From assembly GCF_008806975.1 (NCBI RefSeq), contig NZ_CP031728.1, forward strand, positions 3,741,501-3,805,500: a DNA stretch of 64,000 nt, given 5' to 3'. This stretch comes from Cellvibrio sp. KY-GH-1. Lineage in GTDB: Bacteria > Pseudomonadota > Gammaproteobacteria > Pseudomonadales > Cellvibrionaceae. How positions within the stretch are numbered: the first letter of the stretch is position 1; each line of letters opens with the position of its first letter. The notes below the pieces were generated by a model, which worked only from the letters and a program-made list of their open reading frames with translations, was not told the DNA's origin and did no database searches. Shown piece after piece: positions 43,172 to 47,181 of this stretch. Position numbers and translations under genes: made by a program.

Positions 43172-44746
43172 TTACAACGCCTGAATATTTACAAACTTGC
43201 TGTAAAACCCGTTTTTATCAAACGCAGCTATTTCAAACACGTAACTTCCATTTGCCAAGCCGTTCAACGTAAAGCTGTTGTCCCAAGGGCCAATGCCAGT
43301 TGAAACATAGGTGTATTTGGTGTCGCCTGCGAGTTTATAGCGAATCTCATACCCGCCCAAATCTTCCGCATTCAATACTTCACCATTGGCCCGAGCGGTA
43401 GGTGGCGTCCATTTGAAATATGCCTCTCCTGTCGTAACATCACTGGTCGTGGTTGTAGAGGTGGAAGCTGCACTGGAAGAACTCACAGCAGCTGCAGAAG
43501 AACTAGAAGAACTGGAACTGGTTGTTACTACACTGGGTGCAGAACTGGTTGAGCTGGTCACCGCCCCGGCTGAGCTTGATTGTGCAGACGAGGAGGTTGC
43601 GGTCGTTGATTCGATTTTAAACCAGTTGATATTAAAGCCGTAACTGCCACGCGCCAAAGCGGTAATTCCAAACCTGTGTGAGCCAGCAGTTAAGGTCACG
43701 GTTTTCTCCACATCTACCCACTTTTGGGAGTCTCCGGTTTTAGGTACAGACACAGTTGCATATTGCGCACTACCATCCGCCTCATGAAACGCAAAACTAC
43801 CCCCCCCTGCCAAACTGGCAACCCGGTAGGTAACTTTGTAGGTTCCTGTAGTGGGAATATCTATGACTTTGTCGCTGTAGGATAGCCAATCATTTTCATG
43901 GAAATAACCCACATTCAACCCGCCCCCTATATCCGTTGTAGGCTGGGTTTGTATTCCACTCATCTCTGTATAGTCTTCAGCCTGGATAGTGGCTGGCAAA
44001 GGCAAGCCACGCAGTTCCACTTTAAACCAGTTGATATTGTAACCCGAACCACGAGTTAACGTGGTAATCCCCAAACTATGCACGCCCGCTTTCAAGCTAA
44101 CAGTCCGCTCAACATCAATCCATTTTTGGGTACCACCTGTGTTGGGGACGTTTACGACATCGTACTGGGCACTTTTATCAGCTTCATGAAGCGCAAAACT
44201 ACCACCGCCACCGTTACTGGCAACACGATAAGTGACTTTATAATTCCCCGTTAACGGCGCGACAAATTGAGTATCCGAATAGGACATCCAATCGCCTTCA
44301 TGGAAATACCCAACGTTCAAACCTCCGCCAACATCCTTGGTTGCTTCAGTTTGCACGCCAAACATACTGGTGTAACTTTCAGCCTGGATAGTAAGCGGTA
44401 GACTGGTAGTTGTACTGCTTTTACTGCTGCTGGACGAACTTGTCACCTGAGCTGCGGCCCCGGTTCCCAAACTCATCAGCGGCGCAAACAAAGCCATCGC
44501 AAATGTCATGCGGCGCAAAGACATTTGCCACCCAAGGCCGCGTTTCAATTGTTGATGATTGATGTAACCTAACCTGATTAAAATCTCGCCAATGGAAGTG
44601 ACTTCCATGGCGGCCTTGTCATTCTGGTCTATATCTGCCCGCAAACGTTTTTGTTCGGCAATCGCAACTTTCAATTGACTAGTACTGATCAAGCCTTTTT
44701 CGACCAGAATGTCCCCTAAACGCGTTGCCTTGATATTCGTGGCCAT
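43172..44746 (-). CDS. MshEN-like domain fused to two CBM6 modules and an FN3-like domain
   Basis: An unusual 524-residue protein. Residues 9-32 (RLGDILVEKGLI...LKVAIAEQ) and 51-74 (SIGEILIRLGYI...LKRGLGWQ) match the two 24-residue motifs of MshEN domains, the c-di-GMP-binding unit of MshE/GspE-type ATPases. Next comes a hydrophobic signal- or anchor-like segment (77-98, ending TGAAAQ), a serine linker, two CBM6 beta-sandwiches (about 117-245 and 249-378, both with ...IQAE.Y openings), a long serine/threonine linker and an FN3-like domain (about 435-524). No catalytic module is present. It may be a membrane-anchored glycan-binding protein sensing c-di-GMP. Met75 could instead start a separate secreted form. 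Convergent with rsmD. Confidence 0.8.
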   Translation of the reverse strand: MATNIKATRLGDILVEKGLISTSQLKVAIAEQKRLRADIDQNDKAAMEVTSIGEILIRLGYINHQQLKRGLGWQMSLRRMTFAMALFAPLMSLGTGAAAQVTSSSSSSKSSTTTSLPLTIQAESYTSMFGVQTEATKDVGGGLNVGYFHEGDWMSYSDTQFVAPLTGNYKVTYRVASNGGGGSFALHEADKSAQYDVVNVPNTGGTQKWIDVERTVSLKAGVHSLGITTLTRGSGYNINWFKVELRGLPLPATIQAEDYTEMSGIQTQPTTDIGGGLNVGYFHENDWLSYSDKVIDIPTTGTYKVTYRVASLAGGGSFAFHEADGSAQYATVSVPKTGDSQKWVDVEKTVTLTAGSHRFGITALARGSYGFNINWFKIESTTATSSSAQSSSAGAVTSSTSSAPSVVTTSSSSSSSSAAAVSSSSAASTSTTTTSDVTTGEAYFKWTPPTARANGEVLNAEDLGGYEIRYKLAGDTKYTYVSTGIGPWDNSFTLNGLANGSYVFEIAAFDKNGFYSKFVNIQAL

Positions 44747-44945
44747 CTGCTACCTCCAAAATACAATTACCGACCCTGAACCATACTCAAGCGAAAATGA
44801 AAATGAAAATGACGCCTCAATTGAGTCTAGTTCAGGGGTTTCCAAGTTTGTGATCCAGTAATAGACCAAATTGTGCTTTAGAGTTTGCTGGTCAGCTCAT
44901 TACGAATTTTGTACCATGCGCGACCCACCGACCGGGACTCAATAA

Positions 44946-46377: not shown

Positions 46378-46536
46378 ATCATAATAAGATTTGATTCGCA
46401 CTTTTAAGCAACTTGGCCTGCAATTTGCGACGGCCATGATGCCAGTTCAGGCGCCATCCCAGCGGTAACGGGTCAACGCCACAGGAATAGATATCCTACT
46501 GGTTACCTTATCAACTGTTTGCCTCTGGAGTTTTTA

Positions 46537-47181
46537 ATGAAAAACCTGATGCGGTCGCTGCTTTTACCGTTGCTATTCATAGCTGGCAGCGCCTCGGCGG
46601 TACCTATTGTATCTTTGTCTGCAGCCGGTCAAACAACCACCTCCGTTGCCGATACCACAACTATCGACTTCAACAGCGGTTGCGGCTACGTCGCTTGCAG
46701 TGGCGATTTTATCCTGGCGACTGGCAGCCAAAGCGGCCTCTATGCCCAACCCTTTGGCACCAACACTCAATACCTGAGCGTACCCCATCCATCTGCCAGC
46801 ACCCTGAGCGCCGACTTTACTCTGGGCACAGTCGCCAACTATTTTGGGCTTTTTTGGGGATCAATTGACAGCTATAACTTCGTCAGCTTTTACCTGAACA
46901 ACACCTTGGTTGCCAGTTTTTCCGGTAGTGCGATCGTGGGTCAATTTGCTGATGGTAATCAATTGAGTTACAGCTCTAACCGCTATATCAATTTTGATTT
47001 CGTTAGCGAGAGTTTTGATCGCGTGCGATTAACCAGCCACGGGTTTGCGTTTGAGAGCGATAACCACGCCTTTAGAAAACTGGTCGCAGTCACTGAACCT
47101 AGCGCAGCGCTGTTGCTGTTATTGGGCTTGATCAGTTTGACGTTGATGCGTCGCCAACTTAAAACTGTTGAGCTTAAATAG
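46537..47181 (+). CDS. PEP-CTERM-like sorted surface protein
   Basis: A 214-residue exported protein. The signal peptide ends near GSASA. A beta-rich domain (TIDFNSGCGYVACSGDF, LFWGSIDSYNFVSFY) is followed by a C-terminal sorting signal: TEPSA, a leucine-rich helix and RRQLK. This is the PEP-CTERM plan with a slightly altered PEP, recognised by exosortase/EpsH systems; no exosortase gene is in the window. ATG at 46537 follows CTGGAG at six bases. A CRP-type site lies upstream and a terminator after it. Confidence 0.8.
   Translation: MKNLMRSLLLPLLFIAGSASAVPIVSLSAAGQTTTSVADTTTIDFNSGCGYVACSGDFILATGSQSGLYAQPFGTNTQYLSVPHPSASTLSADFTLGTVANYFGLFWGSIDSYNFVSFYLNNTLVASFSGSAIVGQFADGNQLSYSSNRYINFDFVSESFDRVRLTSHGFAFESDNHAFRKLVAVTEPSAALLLLLGLISLTLMRRQLKTVELK

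Follow-up and report, generated by a model that had tools for sequence, protein, structure and literature searches.

The product of a 524-amino-acid (aa) open reading frame (ORF) of Cellvibrio sp. KY-GH-1 begins with a two-part module, in which a domain homologous to the N-terminal cyclic di-GMP (c-di-GMP) receptor domain of MshE (MshEN_N) is followed in near-fixed register by a signal sequence, and the same module stands in front of different exported parts in other proteins of the genus and of further families. The ORF lies on the minus strand at 43172–44746 of the window, by which is meant the whole 64,000-nucleotide stretch that was analysed (contig NZ_CP031728.1, positions 3,741,501–3,805,500). 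As a whole, the proposal that this is an exported glycan-binding protein with an MshEN_N–signal peptide module, and that c-di-GMP acts in the canonical members of the module family, has in our judgment an even chance of being right. The ORF has an ATG start codon and the following features.

43172–44746, minus strand: whole ORF, 524 aa, in the order MshEN_N, signal sequence, Ser linker, CBM6, CBM6, Ser linker and FN3-like domain
44752–44757, minus strand: Shine-Dalgarno sequence GGAGGT, read from the sequence, with the ATG 5 nt downstream
44651–44722, minus strand: c-di-GMP motif I, residues 9–32, first residue Arg and last residue Gln
44597–44650, minus strand: spacer, residues 33–50, 18 aa (5 in MshE), poorly conserved
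44525–44596, minus strand: c-di-GMP motif II, residues 51–74, Ser replacing Arg, last residue Gln
44447–44524, minus strand: signal sequence, residues 75–100, with Arg78, a hydrophobic stretch, Pro89 and a putative signal peptidase I (SPase I) site, AAA/Q
44402–44446, minus strand: Ser/Thr-rich linker, residues 101–115, read from the sequence
44021–44401, minus strand: CBM6/CBM35-like module 1, residues ~116–242
43610–43984, minus strand: CBM6 module 2, residues 255–379
43430–43609, minus strand: Ser-rich linker, residues 380–439, read from the sequence
43175–43429, minus strand: FN3-like C-terminal domain, residues 440–524

By homology, residues 1–76 are an MshE-type domain, and the observation with which an earlier reading of this DNA (the sequence-only reading, made from the letters without database searches) had begun is real. 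NCBIfam NF053729 (c-di-GMP_motif, MshE-related) matches two stretches of the window protein with 47.3 bits (E = 1.3e-12; curated cut-off, 38) and matches, at E ≤ 1e-5, all 63 homologues, which were found with residues 1–120 and hence have the N-terminus by construction (P0064–P0066, at E 0.03–0.4 and with PF05157/DUF4388, were excluded from the homologue counts). The best relatives of residues 1–76 in the PDB are PilF (6f8l, 2.8e-10) and MshE (5htl, 1.3e-7), found with a family profile of the N-termini (A1), and with a profile built from full-length relatives the matches are CBM6 structures and 5htl (1.5e-5). A chance match was rejected on the strength of the NF053729 score, the matches in all homologues and the PDB matches. 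Structure prediction, one of the checks that had been suggested, gives a four-helix bundle like that of 5htl, and the solved complex of the PilB N-terminal domain with PilZ (7lkm) is, by its title, among the structural matches. Of the profile checks against MshEN families, that with NF053729 was positive, whereas Pfam PF05157 (full MshEN, with MshEN_C) was not reported for the window protein at E ≤ 10. PF05157 was rejected as a test for MshEN: in the MshE-like ATPase of the same genome, NF053729 matches at 391853–392011 and PF05157 directly downstream at 392012–392260, and Pfam misses the N-terminal domain because PF05157 covers the neighbouring MshEN_C part. Pfam DUF4388 (0.02 for the window protein; above cut-off for the relatives L045, L056 and L147) falls on the motif segments, and its matches are taken as the same homology as the MshE-type motifs.

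The two motifs depart further from the consensus than had been stated. Motif I (RLGDILVEKGLISTSQLKVAIAEQ, residues 9–32), described as an exact fit, has Ile in place of the second Leu of LxxxLxxQ and otherwise follows the consensus; in motif II (SIGEILIRLGYINHQQLKRGLGWQ, residues 51–74) the reported Ser for Arg is present, and in addition the next position, Leu in the consensus, is Ile, and the central Gly is followed by Tyr. Elsewhere in the same genome, MshE-type motifs occur in a 288-aa protein (L161, G000:C1:2159708; 38.6 bits, above the NF053729 cut-off), which by eye resembles an EpsG-type polysaccharide tyrosine kinase, and in tandem in a 737-aa CheA-like protein (L163, G000:C1:5083633–5083827; 56.4 bits together).

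The fusion in one frame of an MshEN-type domain, a membrane or export sequence and two CBM6 modules is likewise borne out. Pfam CBM_6 matches two stretches of the window protein with 194.1 bits (gathering score, 28.9), and the Pfam result for this protein contains neither a catalytic domain nor a type V secretion domain. For CBM6 module 2, the solved single module that matches best is that of cellulase B (a CBM6, 1uxz; E = 9.8e-48), which we take to be from Cellvibrio mixtus; this relationship and the known ligands of 1uxz suggest a β-glucan-type ligand for the CBM6 part. As for the C-terminal FN3 domain that had been named, many of its residues are conserved at ≥90% across 33 and 63 aligned proteins and the domain is also found in paralogues without CBM6, but the support from Pfam is weak (FN3_DSCAM, 0.1 for the window protein; fn3, 6.5e-4 for the relative L045).

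The sequence-only reading had called this layout one not otherwise known and had suggested a search for other proteins with the same N-terminus. That search, once run, revealed a family-wide module, which includes the Pseudomonas aeruginosa protein PA3740. Within the genus, the module is matched at E ≤ 1.3e-29 in 20 of 21 genomes (57 genomes were searched, that of the window included), with G015 as the exception. A wider profile search of 390 genomes from the order found it in at least 51, from 14 families, where an ORF of ≤530 aa and a match reaching profile position ≥81 of 95 were required; this count includes families f23 and f31 by the profile criterion alone, with signal sequence uninspected. 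In a set of 369 genomes from the class, the module was seen on inspection in three that belong to two families outside the order, and one further genome outside the order (G443), which is not counted among the inspected ones, has a 475-aa frame with a match to position 82, within the same limits. The parts behind the shared N-terminus are exchanged: in the genus they may hold a single CBM6 module, several or, in Ser-rich proteins, none, a second paralogue group (L028 and L125–L133; 10 places, E 1e-31 to 1e-24) consists of MshEN_N, signal, Ser linker and FN3, and more widely the C-terminal parts include a PA3740-type domain, short domains with aromatic ends, and FN3. Four of the short module proteins (L050, L046, L058 and L146) have an aromatic C-terminus (MRF, RYRF, ITF and FRF, respectively), and such ends resemble those of some outer-membrane or curli-associated proteins. 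In another family, a lipoprotein-like FN3-type ORF (L143:2051–2506, minus strand) adjoins a same-strand MshEN_N–signal–FN3 gene, which has an 18-residue spacer and the motif II Ser, as in the Cellvibrio type.

The two parts of the module keep a near-fixed distance, in that the final Gln of motif II is the first residue of the pattern Q-x3-R-x10/11-P. In 223 of 224 distinct modules, mainly of the Cellvibrio and Pseudomonas types, the first Pro stands 15 or 16 residues after motif II; these modules had passed a collecting pattern that requires R/K near +4, such that only the Pro spacing is a finding in this set (12 of 299 sequences, three of them ATPases, did not fit the pattern). In 19 hand-picked representatives from 14 families, Arg is present at +4 in all 19 and Pro at +15/16 in 17, the other two (L032 and L147) having no Pro and lying outside the collecting pattern. 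In L031, the spacer is 5 residues long and motif II begins RLGEALV. Register with a preceding domain is not expected of an ordinary signal peptide, and the near-fixed register is therefore taken as evidence that the bundle and the signal work together. It counts against this interpretation that shared ancestry explains part of the register.

The hydrophobic stretch resembles a signal peptide of the cleavable kind. It has a positive n-region (R78/R79) and a mean hydrophobicity of 1.51 over 16 residues, as a Sec signal peptide does, and it is followed by Ala at 97 and at 99 (AxA) in ≥90% of the 63 homologues; in the second paralogue group, T-(A/T/M)-A-C-GGG follows the stretch in 10 of the 10 fetched paralogues. 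A Thr at −3 is not textbook for a lipobox. The AxA motif and the lipobox-like Cys are read as pointing to processing by SPase I and signal peptidase II (SPase II), respectively, and a cleavable signal peptide would make direct signalling to the surface part unlikely after export. The hydrophobicity of the stretch is 1.02–2.06 in 64 module rows, compared with −0.05–1.30 in 19 rows of MshEN ATPases (15 distinct sequences), with slight overlap; the set of other rows comprises 66 (60 distinct) including the lipoproteins L028 (1.96) and L131 (1.82), both of which fall inside the range given by the 64.

The sequence-only reading had spoken of a signal- or anchor-like helix and of cytosolic c-di-GMP acting directly on a surface glycan-binding protein. 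The signal sequence stands, whereas the uncleaved anchor that this mechanism needs is disfavoured by the AxA and lipobox-like variants, and the degeneracy of motif II also speaks against direct action of c-di-GMP. Such an inside-out receptor, in which c-di-GMP would alter the periplasmic or surface CBM part, would fit a predicted model in which the motif II helix (residues 64–85) runs unbroken into the hydrophobic stretch, with low confidence beyond residue 81, and the near-fixed spacing would suit mechanical coupling. However, the stretch is short, contains a Pro and is succeeded by the conserved Ala97 and Ala99, all 10 fetched paralogues have the lipobox-like Cys as if the stretch were a cleavable signal, and a CBM part beyond Ser linkers would be only loosely tethered. 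We consider this reading quite improbable, and a cleaved signal peptide is preferred.

The MshEN_N extension belongs to the protein, as judged from its co-occurrence with the C-terminal domain, because 41 of the 44 proteins found in a search with residues 438–524 alone carry the module (39 by pattern; P0189 and P0204 by eye). The other three are P0187 and P0190, which begin inside a CBM module on contigs no longer than 2647 and 1794 bases, respectively, and P0192, which has a decayed front without motif I. P0192 and L138:841–1854 (plus strand) are relatives from the genus with a signal and a CBM part and no recognisable motif I, and may be decayed copies.

Translation probably begins at Met1. 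The sequence-only reading had offered internal initiation at Met75 as an alternative, in which a plain secreted CBM protein and a separate MshEN peptide would be made; on this view the start might equally be Met80, and the upstream frame might be a leader. From Met75 the signal peptide does look conventional, and GGTGG lies just upstream; this site, however, is close and weak compared with the strong GGAGGT 5 nt before Met1, and the frame is continuous. Directly behind the motif II Gln, 31 of the 63 homologues have Met, and the other 32 have Gln, Leu, Ser or Ala. In comparisons with 14 relatives, the ratio of nonsynonymous to synonymous change (pN/pS) is 0.06–0.29 for motif II, 0.14–0.52 for motif I and 0.16–0.81 for the spacer, and 0.12–0.47 for the CBM part in the 11 relatives that have it, all values being coarse with synonymous sites near saturation; constraint on motif II also opposes a start downstream of it. 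A separate Met75 product is thus unlikely as the main product, and the plain secreted protein is very improbable.

Whether c-di-GMP would bind differs within the module family. In the 63 homologues, the motif I Arg is kept in 62, G11, Q32, G53 and Q74 (the third-position Gly and the final Gln of both motifs) are invariant, and the Leu pair of motif II is kept. The first residue of motif II is Ser in 35, Pro in 20, Cys in 4, Ala in 3 and Val in 1, and is never Arg, Lys or Leu; the spacer between the motifs is 14–21 residues. The published consensus for the first residue of both motifs is thus matched by the Arg of motif I and not by the Ser of motif II of the window protein, whose 18-residue spacer also departs from the published 5. 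An extended consensus allows R/K/L at the first motif position (PMC11731258). A GSPII-A construct with Ser at the start of motif II, in a background in which Gly is also replaced by Ala, lost binding wholly, and the same background with Arg instead bound at 19 µM (PMC12002112). Isolated MshEN_N 1–62 binds c-di-GMP with a dissociation constant (KD) of 0.35 µM (PMC5013675), and the missing MshEN_C is therefore no obstacle to binding. Because of the Ser for Arg in motif II and the spacer of 18 rather than 5, c-di-GMP binding by the window protein is doubtful, with room for low-affinity or altered nucleotide binding; for canonical members of the module family it is plausible on the basis of their motifs.

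The chief rival to the proposal is docking with no part played by nucleotide, which we regard as unlikely, though a serious contender. The bundle would then be a contact tag guiding the pre-protein to a pilus or secretion platform or a PilZ-type adaptor, much as MshEN-type domains on T2SS and T4P ATPases make contact with partners; the PilB–PilZ complex found among the structural matches would fit such a role. Half-site II is degenerate in the window clade and in several other families with scaffold and register kept, and some members have fimbrial and curli genes in their vicinity: L139 is ≤6 kb from CsgF and curlin-repeat genes, L140 adjoins a PapD-type chaperone and a CooC/TcfC usher, and L147 adjoins a PapD-type chaperone. 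Nevertheless, retention of the motif I Arg and of both Gln residues is beyond the need of a pure scaffold, and 111 of the 120 relatives of PA3740 listed (236 found) have the two motifs intact and 5 residues apart by a slightly relaxed pattern.

In the proposal that we favour, the window protein would be an exported, apparently non-catalytic glycan-binding protein with the two-part module at residues 1–99. The MshEN_N four-helix bundle of ~75 residues would remain cytosolic, its last helix continuing into the hydrophobic core of a Sec-type signal peptide. SPase I would cleave after AAA99 (LspA in the lipoprotein-like paralogues), whereupon the CBM6–CBM6–FN3 part would reach the cell surface or the medium and bind β-glucan-type ligands, and the MshEN_N–signal fragment would be left behind at the inner membrane face. 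In canonical members (PA3740 type, motifs intact), the bundle would bind c-di-GMP, and this would most likely influence how the attached surface protein is exported or processed, or what becomes of the membrane-tethered remnant. Within the window clade, the second half-site would have decayed (Ser, long insert); the scaffold is probably kept, and the nucleotide response may be weaker, altered or absent. A stronger form, which we hold only tentatively and as somewhat unlikely, is a new class of pre-protein with a cytosolic c-di-GMP receptor domain ahead of a signal peptide and helically locked to it, in which c-di-GMP would gate export or processing of unrelated surface proteins individually, or each export event would leave a membrane-tethered receptor fragment, and to which Cellvibrio would contribute a glycan-binding family with an altered ligand site. 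MshEN_N might instead be a passive extension, a long n-region that slows or spaces Sec targeting, as autotransporters with extended signal peptides do; in type V secretion, signal peptides are known to have long, conserved extensions at the N-terminus. The known extensions of the type V kind are short and unrelated, and the extension of the window protein is a receptor-type domain that keeps ligand-contact residues, which makes a passive role highly improbable.

The surroundings of the ORF vary. It is flanked by what we take, by recognition, to be rsmD-like and coaD-like genes, both on the plus strand. A coaD pattern is present at 13 of 19 fetched loci (L005, L010–L027), and at the remaining 6 (open frames of 685–842 aa) there is no coaD pattern within ~1.5 kb. 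A promoter scan found no convincing sigma-70 site (4 promoter-like sites, all on the plus strand, with 2.2 expected), and a terminator scan found no convincing terminator. A small secreted ORF at 46519–47181 of the window (plus strand) has a C-terminal EPSAALLLLLGLISLTLMRRQL tail, which resembles a PEP-CTERM sorting signal.

Control of surface proteins by c-di-GMP is known at the levels of transcription, of secretion ATPases and of inside-out receptors such as LapD. If the proposal is true, the route would be shorter, with an exported protein carrying its own control domain that stays in the cytosol. The same front end on several unrelated exported proteins suggests that export and internal signalling are connected in an uncharacterised way, and it raises the question of how Sec and signal peptidase handle a folded n-region of 75 residues. 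The module is common enough in the order for tests in laboratory strains, and a concrete hypothesis is gained for PA3740, a c-di-GMP binder to which the literature passages assign no role.

The MshEN domain, the signal peptide and CBM6 are each already known, and PA3740 is in print as a c-di-GMP binder; the open-licence literature searched yielded no description of a recurrent MshEN_N–signal module with near-fixed register. PA3740 (P0067; L105 in strain PA7) carries the module and is like the window protein in that MshEN_N is followed directly by Q-x3-R, a hydrophobic stretch, SPF and ASA. Its residues 55–66 are LKKALKKQTNLR, a stretch that runs from the last part of motif II into the signal; the same letters are given for the c-di-GMP-binding peptides of PA3740 in a review (PMC8789108), 55-LxxxLxxQ-62 of PA3740 is cited elsewhere (PMC5013675), and the protein is termed "probably functional" (PMC12943098), with no mention of its signal sequence in the passages of the open-licence literature. 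The exact LKKALKKQTNLR occurs in 6 of 186 fetched proteins, and the PA7 copy differs at two places. Unlike the window protein, PA3740 has canonical motifs with Arg in both and a 5-residue spacer, and its exported part is a ~140-aa domain of unknown function without CBM6.

Vibrio cholerae MshE MshEN_N (5htl) and PilF GSPII-B share with the window protein the tandem 24-residue motifs and the four-helix bundle (here predicted), whereas the window protein has a spacer of 18 rather than 5, Ser in motif II, no MshEN_C and no ATPase, and a signal follows. GSPII-A of Thermus thermophilus PilF resembles it in having a degenerate motif II that starts with Ser, but has also lost both Gln residues and one Gly, which the window protein keeps (PMC12002112). 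The 1uxz CBM6 is part of a cellulase, whereas Pfam finds no catalytic domain in the window protein. NfrB, a c-di-GMP-activated glycosyltransferase whose MshEN-type domain is C-terminal and cytosolic, likewise places such a domain on an envelope protein that is not an ATPase (NF008411 is a weak match); there the domain sits on a glycosyltransferase, and in the window protein it precedes a signal sequence and an apparently non-catalytic, glycan-binding exported part.
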